Shown here: positions 2,861 through 56,671 of the stretch, one piece after another
Position numbering within the stretch: the stretch's first letter is position 1
Layout of the letters: the number at the start of each line of letters is the position of its first letter
Assembly (NCBI RefSeq): GCF_020520425.1
Contig: NC_079491.1
Span: 24,543,449-24,607,448 of the forward strand
Direction: 5' to 3'
Length of the DNA stretch: 64,000 nucleotides
Source: Spinacia oleracea
Taxonomy: Eukaryota; Streptophyta; Magnoliopsida; Caryophyllales; Amaranthaceae
Translations under genes and position numbers: made by a program
The notes under the pieces: generated by a model
Seen by the model: the letters and a program-made list of their open reading frames with translations, nothing else
What the model was told of the DNA's origin: nothing
The model's database searches: none

Positions 2861-11782
<8,922 letters not shown>

Positions 11783-12540
11783 TGATGATATTGATAATTC
11801 TGATTGAAGGTATGAATTTTTTCTGGATTTTTGTGTAAAATAATTTCTGGGTTTTTTTTGGTTTTTTAATTTTTTTTTAATTTTGGGTAACCCCGGAAGA
11901 ATTGGAGGGGAAGAGGGTCACCGGGGATGAATGATGATGATGGAGGAAAGACGGAGGAGAGAGAAAGAGGTGAAGAAAGAAGGGAGAATTGTAAGAAGGA
12001 AAGTCAATTTTTTTGCGTCATATGATCCTTTATATATGTGTCTCTAAATAATTTTGAATCCAAGTACAATTAATTGAGGGTACTCGTGCTATTTTCATGG
12101 ACTAACCAATAGCCCTATCACATACATAATTACATAATACCACTTATACAGTGTAATACGTCAACGATTCATCGTATATTATAATGATCAGCTGATAAGA
12201 GAGTTATTATGATCTTAAGCAAGAGTTTTGAAAGGAGTCTTACTAGGCGTTATCTTTTATTAAAGTCTAACTCGAGTTATCCTAAAAATAAAGAAGTGGT
12301 GTTGATGGATTTTGAATTCAACAAACAACTAGGTGTTGGTAAGCTCCAGGCCTGGTCGACCCTCCAACACGAGTATGAAATCGTGGGTCGTGGGTCAGGA
12401 TCGGGCCGCAATTATTTATTATATTTTTTAAAAATCACGACGAGACATAGTACGATAAAACACGTTAAACTGAGTGAATTAGTCTTAGGCACAAAGGCAC
12501 GACTTGGCCTGACACGATGGCACTTGTGCTTGATCATTCC
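11783..12540. promoter_or_regulatory. SEC23 5' leader and promoter region
   Basis: Upstream of the SEC23 start. On the gene strand, 11880-12000 is a pyrimidine-rich tract (CT runs), common in plant leaders. Beyond about 12180 the sequence is open on the plus strand for 140 codons (12209-12631), but it resembles no protein I know and includes GTCGTGGGTC-type words found in repeats. No confident TATA box is assigned. Confidence 0.4.
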
Positions 12541-35012: not shown

Positions 35013-36599
35013 TCACCACCACTGATGCACAAGAACGCCGCGCTCTCTGAGAGAAGTAAACAGGTTCAAGCACTGTTCATACGTCTTCTCATACTTGGCA
35101 CTCCTTTCGCCCGGGCAACACCTCTGCCATCGGTTGTAGTGGCACTCCAGAAAGATCTCATCAATCAAGCAAATTGCCCCGGTCTCAAACAACCTAGGAA
35201 TAAGTTCAAATTCCGTCCCTTCAACATCCATCTTCATCACCACAAAGTCTCTCTCAGTCACAGTCGCCTTCAACCACTCAGCAAAGTCAAACCCTTCTAT
35301 CTTATCAACACCATTTGACACCCCATCATGAGATTGAACTGGCTTTATCCTTCCCATACCTCTCCCTTTACTCCCTTTCTCCTGAAGATCATCCCCGGGG
35401 TCATGATTAACCTCGAAAAACAAGGTCTCATTCTTCACCCAAGCAGCATAAGGCAACAAATTCACCCACTTCTTCTTAGCCTCATACTCCTGGTGAAACG
35501 ACTTATCAGCTTCAATTGCATACACCTCAAAAGTCTTGTTCTGTTTCGGGTATTGCTTCTTAAACCAACTCCCAATACTTGAACCATAACTCCTAGCTCC
35601 TACATCTACATATATATACCTACTCTTAAAACTAATATCCACCATTGAAGGCAAATACTTCACATTCTGTATATTCCTTTTTAGTGTAATCCAAGGTTTC
35701 AATGGCTCCTTTGGTATCAATTCCTCCGCTTTTCGAACTATCTCTTGCTTGTACCCCGGGACAACCGAGCACTCCTTACTACTATACACATCAGAACCAT
35801 CTCCCTCTTTCTTCATCACTATTTCCCGTATTATGAAACTATCCCCATCATTATCACTATCAAGACCTTGAATTTCATGGGATTTAATAAATGTGCAAGA
35901 ATTGAATAAAGCAATTAAGGAATGTAAGCTATACGTATCATTTGTTCTTGTATGAACAACCAAATACCCTTCGGGCTTCAGTGTTCTTCCAATTTCCTCT
36001 GCAACTTCAGCGAATCTGCTCAAATTATCAATCCTTCCACCACCACCGTAGAACACGAAATCGAAGGTGTTATTATCATACGGCTGACGACGGCCGTTAC
36101 TCTTCAGAGCGACCACCAACGGTTTCGCCGCCTTCTTCGACACTCCAACGGCGTCAGAAACTCCAAGCTCCTTCAATGCAAAGACCTCTTGCCCTAAGGG
36201 CGTGTCGACGCAGAGAGTCTTCGATTCAGGAGAGAGAAAACCTTCGGCAATCAAATCTTGGAATACCGAAGAGTAGTATTGGACGGATTTCCGCCAATTT
36301 CTGCTTGTATAGAGGATGTTTCCCCGATCGGTGGAGACAGCGTCGCTTGAAACAACAGCGGCAGATGAAACGGCGGAGATTGTCGTAGTTCCGGCGAGAT
36401 TAAAGGTTTCCGGTAAGGAAAAGAAGCAGAAATCGCCGACATCGCAAGATTCGCCTCGAATCGTTACGACATAGGCAAATCGAAAGCAGATGATGAAAAC
36501 ACAGAATAACAAAATCTTCACCATGAAGTTTCGTAGAAAGCTCGGCTTCGTCGGTAACTCCATTAACACAGTTTCAGTGGTGTGTGGAAGCTTCTTCAT
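35013..36599 (-). CDS. Membrane-anchored FkbM-type methyltransferase-like protein
   Basis: An intronless frame of 528 residues from the ATG at 36599 (MKKLPHTTETV). The same frame is open further upstream without an ATG, so this is the first start. A single hydrophobic segment at residues 23-45 (MVKILLFCVFIICFRFAYVV) makes it a likely type II Golgi or ER membrane protein. A first SAM-methyltransferase-like region spans about 129-217 (FDFVFYGGGG, LKPEGYLVVHT). A second, FkbM-like region spans about 330-520, with VDVGARSYGSS at 331 and MKMDVEGTEFE at 457. The C-terminus is Cys-rich (RCCPGE) and ends LVHQWW. The substrate is unknown. From memory the Arabidopsis relatives are At5g01710 and At3g53400. 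The leader contains a 37-codon upstream ORF. Confidence 0.92.
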   Translation of the reverse strand: MKKLPHTTETVLMELPTKPSFLRNFMVKILLFCVFIICFRFAYVVTIRGESCDVGDFCFFSLPETFNLAGTTTISAVSSAAVVSSDAVSTDRGNILYTSRNWRKSVQYYSSVFQDLIAEGFLSPESKTLCVDTPLGQEVFALKELGVSDAVGVSKKAAKPLVVALKSNGRRQPYDNNTFDFVFYGGGGRIDNLSRFAEVAEEIGRTLKPEGYLVVHTRTNDTYSLHSLIALFNSCTFIKSHEIQGLDSDNDGDSFIIREIVMKKEGDGSDVYSSKECSVVPGYKQEIVRKAEELIPKEPLKPWITLKRNIQNVKYLPSMVDISFKSRYIYVDVGARSYGSSIGSWFKKQYPKQNKTFEVYAIEADKSFHQEYEAKKKWVNLLPYAAWVKNETLFFEVNHDPGDDLQEKGSKGRGMGRIKPVQSHDGVSNGVDKIEGFDFAEWLKATVTERDFVVMKMDVEGTEFELIPRLFETGAICLIDEIFLECHYNRWQRCCPGERSAKYEKTYEQCLNLFTSLRERGVLVHQWW

Positions 36600-36900
36600 A
36601 GAGAAAATCGAAAATTCTACAGATAAAATTTCAAAAAAAAAAAGTACAAACAAATTCGAAGAATTTAATTTCTCTTTACAATTGCAGAAAAAAAATGTAA
36701 AAAAATAATTGTTTTTGAATGCTGTGCAGTTGAAGAGGAGAGAGAAAGTAAGGTCTAACGGGAGCAGAACCTGGCGGAGGTGTGGTTAGCGCCGACGAGA
36801 GTAAAGCCGGAAGAAGGAGAAGAAAAAAGGGGATAGACGGGAAAATCAGGGGTAAATCGGGAAATCATGGTGGGTTTTACGCCGGAGTTTTTCTCTCTCC
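36600..36900 (-). promoter_or_regulatory. 5' leader of the methyltransferase-like gene
   Basis: Pyrimidine-rich leader on the minus strand. The only ATG between 36868 and the main start is that of the upstream ORF, so ribosomes scanning from the 5' end meet it first. The main start follows the uORF stop by 155 bases. Confidence 0.6.
36755..36868 (-). CDS. Upstream ORF (37 codons) in the methyltransferase leader
   Basis: ATG at 36868-36866 and TAG at 36757-36755. The peptide begins MISRFTPDFPVYPLF and ends FTLVGANHTSARFCSR. It lies in the leader of the methyltransferase-like gene and does not overlap the main frame. Arabidopsis genes of this family are, as I recall, listed among those with conserved-peptide uORFs that stall ribosomes and repress the main frame. 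The distinctive C-terminus is where such peptides are usually conserved. That this one is conserved is an inference. Confidence 0.55.
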   Translation of the reverse strand: MISRFTPDFPVYPLFSSPSSGFTLVGANHTSARFCSR

Positions 36901-38315
36901 TAACCTAAGGAAACTGCTTTGACATTTTATGATTTTTTTTTTTGTTTGACAAAAATAATAAGGGTGATGTTTGTTCGTTTGGAAATTGCAATGGAGTTGA
37001 CAGTTGAGTGAGAAAAAATGGGTGGGAGAAAGAAGGGGAAGGGATTAAAAAGGAGTAGGAGGAGAGAGAAAAAGTGGCAGGATGACCGGAAGTTTCGGTG
37101 ATGACGCGTGATGAGTTGGAAAGGTAGGAAATTGATTTGTTAACCATTGAGGTTTAGGTTAATTTACCAGTTTGCCACTGCTAGCCGGTAGTCGGTTGCT
37201 GCCGCGGTATCAAGGAAGCGTGCTTACTTATTTAAGAGTGTGATTAATATTTTTTTGACATATTTGTCACATTTTTGGGAAAGAATATTACGGAGTAGAG
37301 ATTAATTGATTGTAGTACTTACTTTTAAGTAAAGAAGAGTTTTTTATTTTTTTATATGGAAAATAAGTAAAGAAGAATTAATATACGAAGTACTGTACAT
37401 TTCAAGATTGGTCAACCCTAGTGTTAAATGTTAATCAATCACATTCAACAAATTTGTTGATAATTGGACATGTAACCAACTCATATACAAAACAAACAGC
37501 AAGTTAGGAGTTGAAATGTCCTCTAAATATATACTCCACGAAGTAGCACTAAAAATAATATTGTCATCTAGATTAACTGTCATTTAAAATCAATACTTCG
37601 TACAATATAATTAAGAATGCACATTTTAGTAAGGTATCATTTTCGTGTAAGTATTATTCATCTACGTGCATATTCATCTACGTGCATATGTTGTTTTATT
37701 ATCTTGTGATCCTATGTGTATGTAATACGAAGTATTGCGTAGAAGCTATGAGCATCAATGAAAGCAATACACTTCTCTAAGCTTGCGGAAACAATAGCTT
37801 AAACTTAATTAATAAGTATTAATAATTTATATTTATTTATCTATATTCTATAAGGGAACACCTGAGGTTATTTTAGCAAATACACTTTTGTTGTCCCCCT
37901 ATAGAAAATTCTAACATGCCACTACTAACCATATATTAACAATAAGTATTAAATACAAAAAAAAAGGGGAAAAAAATCACCCTTATTATAGAAGCCAGAA
38001 ATAATCAACGCTGGAAAAGACAAAAAGGTTGTCTCTCGCAAGTTTTTTTAGTTTAAGGTCCTTTTTCGCAATTTTTTTTTAAAAGGTTGTTTCTCGCAAA
38101 AAAATGTGTTATAAAAGGTTGTTTTTGGCAAATTTGTCTTATATTAATATAAATAGGCTGTCCAAAATTAACACAAAGAGACGGGGAAAGGTGCTATTAT
38201 TATGAAAATTATAGGAAAACACTTTATAAAGTCAAAATATAAACTCATGTCAGATGAGAGTCTAGCTACATATAAGCTCAATACGGTTTCATCCGAGCTA
38301 AGATCATGTTTACTA
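36901..38315. other. Upstream intergenic region
   Basis: Promoter of the methyltransferase-like gene at the left, then AT-rich DNA. The stretch 38030-38150 (GTTGTCTCTCGCAAG, GTTGTTTCTCGCAAAA, GTTGTTTTTGGCAAATTTG) resembles one arm of the Mutator-like foldback at 31246-31754 and may be a truncated relative. An open stretch at 37147-36905 is not supported as a gene. Confidence 0.4.
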
Positions 38316-38597: not shown

Positions 38598-38985
38598 AAG
38601 TGCGGGCTCATTTTAAGGGGTTTAGTGCGGGCTTTTACATGTGCAGCACATGACCTGCCCGCACTTGAAGTTTTTCAAGTGCTGCCAAAATATTGGCAGC
38701 ACTTGATATTTCAAGTGCTGCCAATTTAGAAAATGAGCTCGCACTTGACATATTTTGTGCTGCCAATTTTGAAAATGAGCCCGCACTTGACATATTTGGT
38801 GCTGCCAATTTTGAAAATGAGCCCGCACTTGACATATTTTGTGATGCCAATATTGAAAATGAGCCCGCACTTGACATATTTGGTGCTGCCAAATTTGAAA
38901 ATGAGCCCGCACTTGACATACAAATGGGCAGCATAAGCATAAAAATGAGCCGCACTTGGCTTATAAATGAGCCGCACTTGATTTA
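38598..38985. repeat. CACTA subterminal repeats
   Basis: About seven units of 38-40 bases built around GAGCCCGCACTTGACATATTT-GTGCTGCCAA. Open frames across them on both strands are repeat artefacts. Confidence 0.9.
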
Positions 38986-39189: not shown

Positions 39190-41260
39190 AGACAATCACT
39201 AGTAATGGAGTTTGCCAACATTTCTCGAACTTCATCTATCTCCTCAAAAGTGAAAGGTCGCTCCTTCGGATTATTGAATACCTTTAAAATATCAACCATC
39301 AAAAATTACATATACACATTAGTTATATTATAAATATTGAATCGTACAATAAATTAAGACTTAATTTGTTCATAACAAATAAATAATGAACCGTATAATA
39401 ATAAAAATGGCTAATTTCGATCCCAACTTTCAACTAATGAACTTAAATGAGTATTTTAATGTCTTTCCATGTTTAATACAATTAGTTTTATGTTTCAAAG
39501 ACTCATTCTCACTCATTTTGGTGAATTTATGCACATTTAAGCATCGTTTGATCATTATCGTTCACATTTTGACTAAAATGGCTAATTTCGGTCCCAACTT
39601 TCAACTAATGAACTTAAATGAGTACTTTAAAGCCTTTCAATGTTCAATACACTTAGTTTTATGTTTGAAAGACTCATTCCCACCCATTTGGGTGAAGTTA
39701 TGCACATTTAAGCCTCGTTAGTTCATTATCGGTCACATTTTGACTAAAATGGCTAATTTCGGTCCCAACTTTCAACTAATGAACTTAAAAGAGTATTTTA
39801 AAGTATTTTCATGTTTAATACACTTAGTTTTATGTTTCAAAGACTCATTCTCAACCATTTTGGTAAAGTTATGCACATTTAAGCCACGTTATTTCATTAT
39901 CGGTCACATTTTGACTAATATGGCTAATTTCGGTCCCAACTTTCAACTAATGAACTTAAATGAGTATTTATAGCGTTTTCATGTTTTATACACTTATTTT
40001 TATGTTTCAAAGACTCATTCTCACCCATTTGGTAAAGTTATGCACATTTAAGCCTCGTTAGTTCATTATCGGTCATATTTTGACTAAAATGGCTAATTTC
40101 AGTCCCAACTTTCAACTAATGAACTTAAATGAGTATTTTAAAGTCTTTCCATGTTTGATACACTTAGTTTTATGTTTCAAAAACTCATTCTCACCCATTT
40201 TGGTGAAGTTATGCACATTTAAGTCTCGTTAGTTCATTATCGGTCACATTTTGACTAAAATGGCTAATTTCCGTCCCAACTTTCAACTAATGAACTTAAA
40301 TAATTATTTTAAAGTCTTTCCATGTTTGATACACTTAGTTTTATGTTTCAAATACTCATTCTCACCCATTTTTGTGAACATTTTGACTAAAATGGCTAAT
40401 TTCGGGCCCAACTTTCAACTAATGAACTAAAATGAGTATATTAAAGTCTTTCCATGTTTAATACACTTAAATTAGTAGTTTTATGTTTAAAATCAGCCAA
40501 ATTCCTTATTTGATCATTAACTAGTATAAACTATGAGTTCAGAATTGAGTTAAATGTGATGCAAAACCATATAAAGTGTTTTCACAATTTCAATATTTAA
40601 ACAATAAGGAATACCAACCAAAACACTCCAGTAACATGACATTGAAGCATTGGCTTGATAAAGGCATCGAATTCTGAGATATTAGGAAACATCCCTCCCA
40701 TGATGCAAACTCATTAGTAGAGGCCTTAAATAACATTAACTTCTAAATCATTTTAGGTGTTATTAGACTTGTTTCTACCCATAAATAACACTTACAATTA
40801 CAAGTAACAACAAAGAAACCCACGAGTCATTGCAAAGTGAAGCAAATAACCAAAAAAATATGTACCACCAACATGAAAACAAAAATTATGAGAAACTCAT
40901 ACCGGATTAACCTACCAAAAACGGATAATCACATAGGACAAATGACCAAAATATAAATATCATAATCGCAACTTGCAAAGAATTATACATGATAAATTCT
41001 ATAAAGTTTAATAAACGTCAAACAATAAGAAACTAATTACAAGAAATATATGCATGCCATAGCTTAAAAGTTAAAGAAAATATGGCACTGATCATCGAGG
41101 CAAAGCATCTAATACAAAGAATCTTAAACCAACTAGTACAGAGAATTGAAAATCAGACCTCTTTGTAAATAGGAGGAGGTTTGTCAGCCATTTGAGTCGG
41201 ACGACGCACGATTTTGACACCATATCTGCCCAATCTCTCCTTCGTCTTCAATGAACATAG
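39190..41260 (-). pseudogene. Coding-like fragments inside the CACTA element
   Basis: Three minus-strand stretches read like exons. Near 41252-41163: ERLGRYGVKIVRRPTQM, then ADKPPPIYKE before GT. Near 40710-40618: MGGMFPNISEFDAF, then IKPMLQCHVTGVFW. From about 39278: VFNNPKERPFTFEEIDEVRE, ending near 39190. GT and AG dinucleotides lie at suitable borders, but the middle piece is open in two frames. I do not recognise the protein. They could be a captured host gene or a degenerate element gene. Confidence 0.4.
39404..40470 (+). repeat. Minisatellite, about seven units of roughly 170 bases
   Basis: A unit starting ATGGCTAATTTCGGTCCCAA recurs near 39408, 39578, 39748, 39919, 40089, 40259 and 40393; the sixth interval is shortened. 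Each unit contains GTTTCAAAGACTCATTCTC and ATTATCGGTCACATTTTGAC. It is internal to the CACTA element. Confidence 0.93.
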
Positions 41261-47957: not shown

Positions 47958-48118
47958 AGGATTAAAGATCCTTAGCTCAATTGTTTCTGAAATTCCGCAA
48001 AATTGTTTTGCTCTAAATCATTCTGTGTACTTGTTCTTTTGAGTTTCGATCGTTCTGATTCTATCTCCTTCTTTGCTGAATCTGTTTCTTGATTTCAAAA
48101 CCTGTTCAAGTTTTGATA

Positions 48119-51100
48119 ATGGCTGCTGGTGATCACAACACTGACAATTCACTGAGAAACAATGTTTTACCTCCAAATCAAGATCCAGCAAGCATATACT
48201 ATATACATCCTTCTGATGCAAACTCAGTACAATTAATTTCTTTCAAATTCAATGGTGAGGAAGGTTTCACTAGCTGGAAGAGATCAATGCTACTTGCATT
48301 GTCTGCTAAGAACAAAATTGGTTTTGTTGATGGTAGTTTTATCAAACCTGATTTTGGCACAGCTGAACACAAGGCCTGGGAAAGATGTAATGATCTAGTG
48401 TGCTCACTGATTTTAGGGAATTTGAATGAGACTATAGCCAAAAGTGTTATGTTCATGAAGTCTGCAAGAGATATTTGGACTGATTTGGAAGACAGATTTG
48501 GTTTTGCATCACTAGCACAGATTTATTCTCTTGAGCAAAAATTGGCTGAAATAAGCCAAGGAGATAAATCTGTAGCTGAGTTCTTCACTGAAATCAAATA
48601 TGTGTGGGATGCAATTGAGGAAGCAAATCCTTTACCATACTGTACTTGCAATAATTGTACCTGTAATGTGACAAAGAAAATTTTTCAGAGGCAACAAGAG
48701 AGAATGGTGATGCAGTTTATGATGAAACTCAATGATCATTTTTCTACTATTAGAGGAAATGTACTGATGGTTCCAACTTTGCCCAAGGTATCTGAAGCTT
48801 ACAGGTTATTTGCTCAAGAAGAGAGGCACAAGGAGGTTTCTCAAGCTAGTAATCAAGTTGAAACACTGGCTTTTGCAGCTGAGAAAAGGAGGTTTACTGG
48901 AGATCATTGGAACTCTAGCAACAAAACTTACAAAACTGGTTTTCAGACAGGTTATCAATCTGGTTCTCAGAAATCTGGAGGAACCAATAGATTTAGTAAA
49001 CCAGGATCCAACTACTACTGCACACATTGTCAAACACAGGGACACAGTGTGGAGAGATGCTTCAAGATTCATGGTTATCCACCTGTCTACAAGACTGCAA
49101 GAGACAATAAGGTTGCAGCAGTTTCATTTGGTGACAATTCTAATAACAGTGTGCCAGAGTTGCCACAAACTGAAGCATCTCCAACTATCACAGTGGAGCA
49201 ATATCAGCAGCTTATGGATATGTTGTCTAAACAACAACAACAGAATGCTAATACCAATCCTAACCTGGCTATGATGGCAGGTAATGTCTGTTTACTCTCT
49301 CACACTAAATCTAAATGGCTGTTAGATAGTGGAGCTTCAGACCATTATTGTCATGATTTGTCCCAATTTTCATGTTATAAGCCTGTTGACAATCAGAATA
49401 CTTACATTACTATACCTGATGGGAGCAACATTGCAGTGAAACACATAGGTTCAGTAACACTGAATGATGGTATAATTTTGAACAATGTCTTACATGTTCC
49501 AGATTTTAAGTATAATCTGATATCTGTACATAAGTTGTGTCAAGATTTGCAATGTGAGATTCATTTCACTCATGATAAGTGCTTTGTTTGCTGCCAGCAA
49601 GGGAGGCTGATTCCTCTTGGTGATATGAAATCAGGTCTATACAAGTTGGGAGAACAAGAATCTGGAAAAGTCACCCCTGTCCAAACACACATCTGTAATG
49701 TGGCTTGTTCATCCACAGTAGATAATGCTAAATTGTGGCATTTAAGACTTGGACACTTACCTTTTAATAGACTGAAACTAATAAATCCTAGTTGTGATGT
49801 GTCTGCTTGTTTACAAGACACCATTTGCCAAGTGTGTCCTGCTGCAAAGCAAACTAGGTTGAATTTTCCTCACAGTAGTATTAAGTCAACTAAGCCATTT
49901 GATCTTGTACACATAGATGTTTGGGGTCCTCATGCTGTAAAAACACCTTCTGGTTGTACTCAGTTTTTGACTATTGTTGATGATTATACCAGATTTACTT
50001 GGATCCATTTTCTGAAAAACAAAATTGATTGTGTTTCTGTTATGGATAATTTCTTGAATATGGTTGAAACACAATTTAGAGTGAAGGTTAAATGTATTAG
50101 ATCAGATAATGCCAAGGAACTTTGTGAAGGGGATATGAAGAAATTATATCTGAAGTTGGGCATTCTAATCCAAACCAGTTGTAGCCATACACCCCAACAG
50201 AATGGTGTTGTAGAAAGGAAGCATAAACACTTGTTAGAAACAGCAAGAGCCTTATACATACAGTCCAAAGTACCAGAGAGATTTTGGGGGGAATGTATAC
50301 TTTGTGCTGCTTATTTGATCAACAGGATGCCTTTGCAATCCTTGAAGCTTGAATCTCCTTACTATAGGTTGTTTGACCAGACTCCAAATCTCTCACACTT
50401 GAGGACTTTTGGTTGTCTTTGTTATGTGTCCACAACCAAAGTAGGGAGAACAAAATTGAACCCAAGGGCCACTCCCTGTGTGTTCATGGGTTACTCAACA
50501 ACACAGAAGGGATATAAAGTTCTGGAAATAGATACAAACAGATTCTTTGTATCAAGAGACATACATTTTCATGAAAAACACTTTCCATTTCACCTTTATC
50601 ACAAACACAAATCCACAAATATCTCTCCTTACACCAATGCCATCTATCTTCCTACTTTTTTATCCCCTACAGTTTTTGATCCACCAGATTTTTCTTCACC
50701 CACTACCATTTTTCCTCCTCATTCCATAACACCACAAGCTAATGTGTCACCTGAACCCTTCACTCCATCACCATCACCATCCACATCTGCTTCTCCTTCT
50801 GTACATAGTACAGAAACTTCTTCTTCTTCTTCTCCAACAAATTCATCCACTCAATCTTCTACTCCTTCTGTACATAGTACAGAAACATCTCAATCTACTT
50901 CTAGTTCCACTTCTGAACCACTTCCTTATCCCATCATCAGACAATCTGCAAGATCACACAAACCACCTGCATATTTGGATGCTTATGAATGTTTTACTGC
51001 CTCAAATCCAGACACAATACCAGTTGCTCAACACTGGTGCAATCTGGTTTCATATGTTACTTTTCCAGAGGAATTTCAAGCTTTCCTTACTCATGTTTGT

Positions 51101-51298
51101 GACATCAAGGAACCTTCATCTTATACTGAAGCTGCTAAACACCCCTTATGGGTTGAGGCAATGACAAAAGAACTGGATGCTTTAGACAGAAACTACACCT
51201 GGGAGTTGGTGGAACTACCTAAAGGGACACTACTACAAAAGTGGGCAAAGAGACCCGTCCAAAATGGCCTAAGAGATCCTCTTAGAGGGGGTCTCTAG
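48119..51298 (+). pseudogene. Copia gag-protease-integrase (5' part of the polyprotein)
   Basis: The ATG at 48119 opens MAAGDHNTDNS. Gag ends in the zinc knuckle CTHCQTQGHSVERC (about residue 300). The protease motif LLDSGASDH is at about residue 402. The integrase HHCC region starts HLRLGH near residue 540, followed by the catalytic DVWG region and DNAKEL, then a Ser/Thr/Pro-rich linker encoded at about 50750-50930. The genuine frame ends at 51227, where the CACTA element starts; the frame then runs through transposon DNA to a stop at 51298, adding foreign residues. Without the insertion the frame would continue into 55262. This part has no internal stop. Confidence 0.93.
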
Positions 51299-54747: not shown

Positions 54748-55258
54748 TGTTGCTTAAAAATTGAAATTTGATTTTGAAAATTAGGGTTTTTCATTCAACT
54801 CTAGTGAGCTGCAGAAATTGGTGATATTGGGGAGTGATTGAGGAAGATAAATTGGAGTTTTGATTGAGAACAAAGGAGTGAAAAGTTTGGGATGCGATTT
54901 TGCTACAAATTCGATTAGATCTGAAATGGGGGAGTAGGGTTGGGTTTTCGCTGGTAGAAGGAAGGGGAAAAGAAAATTGGGCGTTAATTAAATTAAACAA
55001 TGACTATTTTCCGTATGAATTAAATTAAACAGATCCCTCATGGTAGTTAACGGCTCTCTTCTTTTTTACACTCCGTGGACCCCGCTTATATAAGAGACTC
55101 CGTATCTGTGAAAATGGGTGTGTTGTGTATCTTTTATTTTCCGGGTTAATAGAAGAGACCCGTTATTGATAATATGAGGTCTTTTTAACTAAAGAGACCC
55201 GTTATGTATTCAAAAGGGTCTGTTTTTAGGGATCTCTTTGGACATTTTTGTAGTAGTG

Positions 55259-56671
55259 GGAAAAGAGCTATTGGTTGTAAATGGGTATTCAAAGTGAAGC
55301 TGAAATCCACTGGGGCTTTAGAAAGGTGCAAAGCTAGATTAGTGGCCAAAGGATACAATCAAAAATATGGGATTGATTATGAGGAGACTTTCAGTCCAGT
55401 GGTGAAAATGAGCACCATTAGATGTCTTCTTGCAGTTGCAGCAAGCAGGAAATGGCCCCTTTTTCAATTAGATGTCAACAATGCTTTTTTACATGGTGAT
55501 TTGAAGGAGGAAGTGTACATGCAAGTACCAGAAGGAATTGACAATCCAACCAACAAAGTGTGTAGATTGATCAAGTCTATATATGGGTTGAAGCAAGCTT
55601 CAAGACAGTGGCATGAGAAGCTATTAACTGCTTTAGAAAAACAAGGGTTTATGCAGTCTAAACATGATTACAGCTTGTTTATTAACAAGCAAGATGGGCA
55701 TATCAATATTGCAGCAGTCTATGTTGATGACATAATCTTGACAGGGACTGATTCAGATAAGCTACACTCTTTGAAGGCTTATTTACACCAGGAGTTCAGC
55801 ATCAAAGATTTAGGAACTCTTAACTATTTCCTTGGCATGGAAGTAGGATACACTTCTGATGGAATAATTCTTAGCCAAAAGAAATTTACCAAAGAACTCA
55901 TTGAGTGCTGTGGTTTGGATGTATCCAAGAGAACAGTTACACCTTTACCAGTAAATGTCAAGCTCAGTAACACAGAAGGTGAACTTTATTCTGACACAGA
56001 AAAGTACAGATCACTAGTTGGAAAGTTGAATTTCTTAACACACACAAGACCTGATCTCTCATATGCAGTACAAACACTGAGTCAGTTTCTGCAATGCCCT
56101 AGAATGCCACATGTAGCAGCTTTGCACCACACTTCGAAGTATCTGGCACACACAGAAGGTCAAGGGATTTTGTTAAAAAGTTCAAACAATATCAGCTTAC
56201 AGGCTTTCTCAGATTCAGATTGGGCTTCTTGTCCAGATTCTAGAAGATCCACCACTGGATACATTCTTTTACTTGGTGGTTCACCAGTGTCTTGGAAGTC
56301 TAAAAAGCAAGGAACAGTTTCTAAATCTTCAGCAGAAGCAGAATATAGGGCAATGGCAGCTGCTGCTTCTGAGGTGACTTGGATAGTTAATTTATTGGAA
56401 GATTTGGGTGTTTATGATCTCAAGCCAATCACACTTGCACTGTGATAACCAATCAGCCTTACACATTGCTAAAAATCCAGTGTTCCATGAGAGAACAAAA
56501 CACATTGAGATAGACTGCCACTTTACAAGAGATAAAGTCCTAGAGGGATTGTTGCACCTCACTTATCTACCTACACAGCAACAATTGGCTGATATTTTTA
56601 CCAAACCTCTCTCATCTGTACAGTTCCAGACTCTCTTGTCCAAGATTGGAGCTTGTGAGCCTCCATCTTGA
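55259..56671 (+). pseudogene. Copia reverse transcriptase / RNase H (3' part of the polyprotein), frameshifted
   Basis: The frame resumes right after the CACTA element with KRAIGCKWVFKVK. RT motifs are intact: QLDVNNAFLHGDL, SIYGLKQASRQWH and the catalytic YVDDIILTG. RNase H carries SDSDWASCPDSRRSTTGY and SKSSAEAEYRA. One extra base at about 56437 shifts the frame within the region leading to [13 protein letters not shown], so the main frame stops at 56445 and the last 77 residues continue in another frame to 56671. This is the only shift seen in the copia coding region. Confidence 0.93.

Follow-up and report, generated by a model that had tools for sequence, protein, structure and literature searches.

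A likely HG17-family conserved-peptide uORF ahead of a methyltransferase-like gene in spinach, with near-identical tails before two distant paralogues

Is the short reading frame that stands ahead of a methyltransferase-like gene in Spinacia oleracea a control element acting through its own peptide, and to which family does it belong? The frame lies on the minus strand at 36755..36868 of the window (the whole stretch of 64,000 nucleotides that was analysed) and contains 37 codons followed by a TAG stop. From its translation, the ATG list and the tails of its paralogues, we regard it as a likely conserved-peptide uORF of HG17 type. Its peptide, read from 36868 to 36755, is MISRFTPDFPVYPLFSSPSSGFTLVGANHTSARFCSR. 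It can be divided into an N-terminal part (36800..36868, minus strand), which is poorly conserved in the alignment of the three uORFs described below, and a conserved tail, LVGANHTSARFCSR, which together with the stop codon occupies 36755..36799 (minus strand) and is proposed as an arrest peptide on the basis of the paralogue comparison and the differences by codon position.

The original prediction had described this frame as the sole ATG between 36868 and the main start, ending 155 bases before it, and the ATG list (37500 to 36450) confirmed both statements: the uORF ATG at 36868 is followed by no other ATG until the main start at 36599, and the 155 nt from the uORF stop to that start form an ATG-free spacer (36600..36754, minus strand). 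GC content is 52% in the uORF, 38.5% in the preceding 200 nt and 25% in the spacer. The uORF ATG has the context cccaccATGa, with A at -3, and the main ATG has ttctctATGa, with T at -3. Farther upstream, the same list contains a small candidate uORF of 6 codons, MSKQFP (36905..36925, minus strand; ATG at 36925), the stop of which sits 36 nt upstream of the ATG of the 37-codon uORF. Another ATG at 37147 is in phase with MSKQFP and opens a candidate frame of 80 aa (36905-37147, minus strand) with the same stop.

The main ORF (mORF; 35013..36599, minus strand) encodes 528 aa and is DUF7870 / FkbM methyltransferase-like, as judged by Pfam and hydrophobicity. It matches DUF7870 (1.1e-33) and Methyltransf_21, the FkbM methyltransferase domain (3.2e-06), and has a single hydrophobic segment, which is N-terminal (residues about 19-49). 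The Arabidopsis HG17 proteins presumably carry DUF7870 as well. An in-frame ATG at 36563 could be an alternative main start, and the start of the paralogue L013 aligns there by eye (MELPTKPSF.. vs MKPSF..).

The source genome (894 Mb, 242 contigs) was searched with the mORF, which gave at least 11 matches from 14 scored candidates. By position, the matches listed fall in nine places, namely the window and eight others (L013-L020), all of which were read. In a stop-anchored scan of these eight loci, the 16 C-terminal residues of the window uORF were compared with peptides ending at a stop on both strands, leaving out stops with another in-frame stop within 8 codons before. Among 3691 peptides, two matches scored 63 and 61 (self 85), and the next best scored 17. 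Thus, 2 of the 8 mORF-related places listed, L014 and L017, have a uORF on the sense strand in which the tail, with its stop, is near-identical; the tails of the window, L014 and L017 are LVGANHTSARFCSR, LVGGNHTSSRFCSR and LVGGNHTASRFCTR, each followed by its stop. The L014 uORF, MMGLSWFEPMSRRIPRRVWLGYQKSMGLLVGGNHTSSRFCSR, ends 163 nt upstream of an mORF of 476 aa, and the L017 uORF, MEVERMLQLLFLKHKGQNSRVSLVGGNHTASRFCTR, ends 280 nt upstream of the mORF ATG. The L017 gene model has one intron, placed by eye, and its spliced product is 410 aa. Pfam matched DUF7870 in the mORFs of the window, L013 and L014; in L017, the domain is found in the second exon and is absent from the first.

An unanchored scan of 293,630 14-residue stretches from 24 loci (L003-L026) revealed zero further copies, the next best score being 32 for an antisense stretch inside the L014 mORF. 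When the L014 uORF was searched against the whole genome, it recovered itself and L017 (E 0.43) but missed the window uORF, which indicates that such a search overlooks peptides this short, and three copies should be taken as a lower bound.

The 37-codon uORF most probably belongs to the HG17 family (CPuORF45-48) as a new member, and three copies were found in this one genome. This assignment is based on the gene family, the position, the length of the conserved tail and a four-residue coincidence, and not on a letter-by-letter alignment with Arabidopsis, since HG17 alignments are published as figures and the passages covered give no peptide letters. The original prediction had proposed that this methyltransferase-like gene, with its listed relatives, has a conserved-peptide uORF, and the literature agrees with it. 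Group 17 was published with the members At1g58120, At3g53400, At5g03190 and At5g01710 (Hayden and Jorgensen, PMC2075485), and in vitro experiments attribute translational repression to its tail (PMC9305500). Moreover, HG17 uORFs, including rice OsCPuORF38, precede methyltransferase-like genes and belong to class I, with the last 14 residues and the stop conserved and the N-terminus free (PMC9305500, PMC2075485). The three spinach uORFs present the same class I pattern: their N-terminal parts align poorly and about 14 C-terminal residues are conserved. Group 17 shows perfect conservation of the stop and of the four residues before it in both monocots and dicots (PMC2075485), whereas the L017 copy ends in FCTR. 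The spinach case also differs in the genome and the copies concerned, and in that the closest paralogue listed (L013) is without such a uORF. A comparable arrangement is the HG13 uORF of phosphoethanolamine N-methyltransferase (NMT1), which also precedes a methyltransferase and makes its translation conditional, but it forms a separate homology group with another kind of methyltransferase and a reported response to choline, and is set apart here by its description (PMC2075485). In the available part of the main text of PMC2527020, neither the four HG17 gene numbers nor 'group 17' was found. Literature text searches for four tail words and for a conserved-peptide uORF in Spinacia oleracea retrieved no paper.

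We consider it very probable that the frame is an HG17-family conserved-peptide uORF, the tail of which stalls ribosomes and represses the main ORF until water limitation or heat relieves the block. Scanning ribosomes would initiate at the uORF ATG, which has A at -3. During translation of the final codons, the nascent tail would occupy the exit tunnel and slow termination at the uORF stop. A ribosome stalled in this way would block its followers, so that few would get as far as the main ATG, which is weaker and lies 155 nt downstream, and stalling would probably feed nonsense-mediated decay as well. Once water limitation or heat lifts the block, the endomembrane methyltransferase-like protein could be produced. 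Published work on the family is consistent with such a course. Loss of the uAUG raises reporter output in HG17, mutations of the tail relieve repression significantly in vitro and show a trend without significance in planta, and PARE (degradome) reads for CPuORF46 and CPuORF47 show enrichment at positions -16 and -46 relative to the stop, which fits stalling there (PMC9305500). At3g53400 was taken as a genuine NMD substrate (PMC4417159), and At5g01710 was annotated as a methyltransferase type 11/FkbM of the endomembrane system (PMC3426882). By analogy, we infer that the window copy may be transcribed, arrest ribosomes and respond to stress in spinach.

As for the signal, the original prediction had suggested a metabolite, and the literature covered does not support metabolite sensing. 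In the published work, CPuORF47 responds to mannitol and drought, and CPuORF46 responds to heat and shows a weak effect of mannitol; OsCPuORF38 of rice gave no response to mannitol or heat, and thermospermine failed to release CPuORF47 (PMC9305500).

The conserved tail also contains a possible 5' splice site. A cut at AG|GT (36769..36772, minus strand; exon end 36771, G of the intron at 36770) is predicted to remove exactly FCSR and the stop, and the equivalent cut in L017 would remove FCTR. This is the four-residue coincidence mentioned above, for one EST of At5g03190 joins the uORF to the mORF and skips exactly the four C-terminal uORF residues (PMC2075485). HG17 was reclassified as aNT25 from its alternative transcripts (PMC3426882), and At5g01710 and At5g03190 are named among the genes with fusing splice variants (PMC7106846). 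The frame could thus be read mainly as a first exon encoding an alternative N-terminus: splicing at AG|GT would join the uORF to the methyltransferase with loss of the membrane anchor, and the 'uORF' would be just the unspliced form. In favour of this, all three uORFs contain a matching site, CCAG|GTTYTG (CCAGGTT is identical in the three in the leader alignment), and the window mORF holds in-frame acceptors; for example, an exon start at 36300 would give a fusion of 461 aa. These acceptors, scored with rough weights, weigh little because any long coding frame offers some. In L017, splicing from the tail to the native acceptor of the by-eye model would lead to a frameshift and an early stop, and an AG four bases past it would give an in-frame fusion with the whole DUF7870 part.

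The pattern of conservation argues against fusion as the main role of the frame. The three copies end in FCSR, FCSR and FCTR before the stop, so the residues that a fusion would lose are retained with one S/T change, whereas the N-terminal part, which makes up much of what would enter the fusion, is not conserved. The bases beyond AG|GT make a poor donor (GTTCTG/GTTTTG). In addition, the HG17 fusion ratio is below the threshold for spurious CPuORFs (PMC9305500), and At5g01710 and At5g03190 are described as true CPuORF genes that also produce the fusing variants (PMC7106846). The aNT25 class (PMC3426882) covers the same genes and has its donor at the matching place, but its label stands for uORF-mORF fusing transcripts, and the residues kept here are those that fusion would remove. 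We therefore give little credence to the alternative N-terminus as the main function. Arrest explains the conservation better, since the residues that would be lost on splicing are among the best kept, and both may hold. They would be combined in a two-way switch, a proposal that we regard as rather doubtful: the unspliced tail would act as an arrest peptide silencing the anchored methyltransferase, and AG|GT splicing would delete the stop and the anchor along with the arrest residues, yielding an unanchored fusion enzyme that escapes arrest, with CCAGGTT held by both demands.

Selection has acted on the peptide. The uORF stands at a defined position ahead of the gene, and its near-identical tail recurs before two distant paralogues. 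The last 14 residues are identical at 12/14 positions between the window and L014, 10/14 between the window and L017 and 12/14 between L014 and L017, while mORF identity over aligned residues is 31.1%, 33.2% and 27.8%, respectively. In the last 14 codons, differences at codon positions 1-2-3 number 1-1-8 for window/L014, 3-1-9 for window/L017 and 2-0-3 for L014/L017. A low Ka/Ks, which the original prediction had named as a mark of a conserved peptide, was found between paralogues of this genome: by the Nei-Gojobori method, Ka is 0.068 and Ks 2.33 for window/L014, Ka is 0.142 with Ks saturated for window/L017, and Ka is 0.068 and Ks 0.333 for L014/L017. Among the gap-free columns of the leader alignment, 30 of 45 are invariant within the tail and stop, vs 48 of 192 elsewhere. 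All three tails use the codon AGG, which is suggestive only, since AGG accounts for 23 of 83 Arg codons in four related coding stretches.

These figures bear on the simpler view that this is an ordinary, sequence-independent uORF which only lowers re-initiation, the similarity of the tails being leftover homology. Equal numbers of substitutions were placed at random in the tail codons, and the stop-free trials that kept as many residues were counted (21 of 18212 for window/L014 and 101 of 17159 for window/L017). The L014/L017 pair alone shows no significant excess of kept residues (3506 of 18829), and the paralogue L013 manages without the uORF, both of which an ordinary uORF would accommodate. 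It does not accommodate residues kept in both comparisons with the window when synonymous sites are near saturation, nor a conserved tail when the rest of the leader and the N-terminal part of the uORF have diverged, and we find this view scarcely credible. uORFs are common in plant leaders, which would favour a functionless chance ATG frame in a pyrimidine-rich leader, but the scores of the stop-anchored scan, far above the next best, and the random placement in the tail codons speak strongly against it, and its probability is practically negligible.

The HG17-type element is not retained in every copy of the gene. The tail was not found at six loci (L013, L015, L016, L018, L019 and L020), each read with 10 kb extra upstream (L021-L026); their best 14-residue scores are 17 to 30, vs 74-77 for true tails. 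Among the matches listed, L013 (C6) is the closest mORF paralogue, with 265 of 472 aligned residues identical (56%) and an intact coding frame of 481 aa, and no HG17-type uORF tail was found in 13.1 kb upstream of it (L013 and L021). Since its start codon is known and 13.1 kb were read, the absence there is fairly firm, and L013 represents an apparent loss of the element, with a leader exon farther off being possible. The simple prediction of a similar peptide upstream of relatives therefore fails at the closest listed paralogue. For the five more distant loci (L015, L016, L018-L020), start codons were not located, and absence there says little.

The spinach uORFs contribute three copies of an ancient HG17 control element, all from a single genome, and the peptide has been preserved far more closely than the enzyme under its control. 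The window gene has the element and its closest listed paralogue, L013, apparently lacks it, which makes the two a natural comparison. If the results in Arabidopsis carry over, the leader would be a site for studying how water limitation controls a methyltransferase in a different plant.

A scan of the window against Rfam at gathering thresholds gave zero matches, and a tRNA scan (bacterial settings) found zero. Tandem arrays with units of 42 bp and 171 bp lie at 38715-38920 and 39404-40378, roughly 2.1 to 3.8 kb ahead of the main ATG. The window also contains a coding stretch of a Sec23/Sec24-type gene (10916-11917, minus strand; Sec23_trunk, zf-Sec23_Sec24) and Copia-type retrotransposon frames at 48080-51298 and 55189-56445 (both on the plus strand) with gag, integrase and reverse transcriptase RVT_2.
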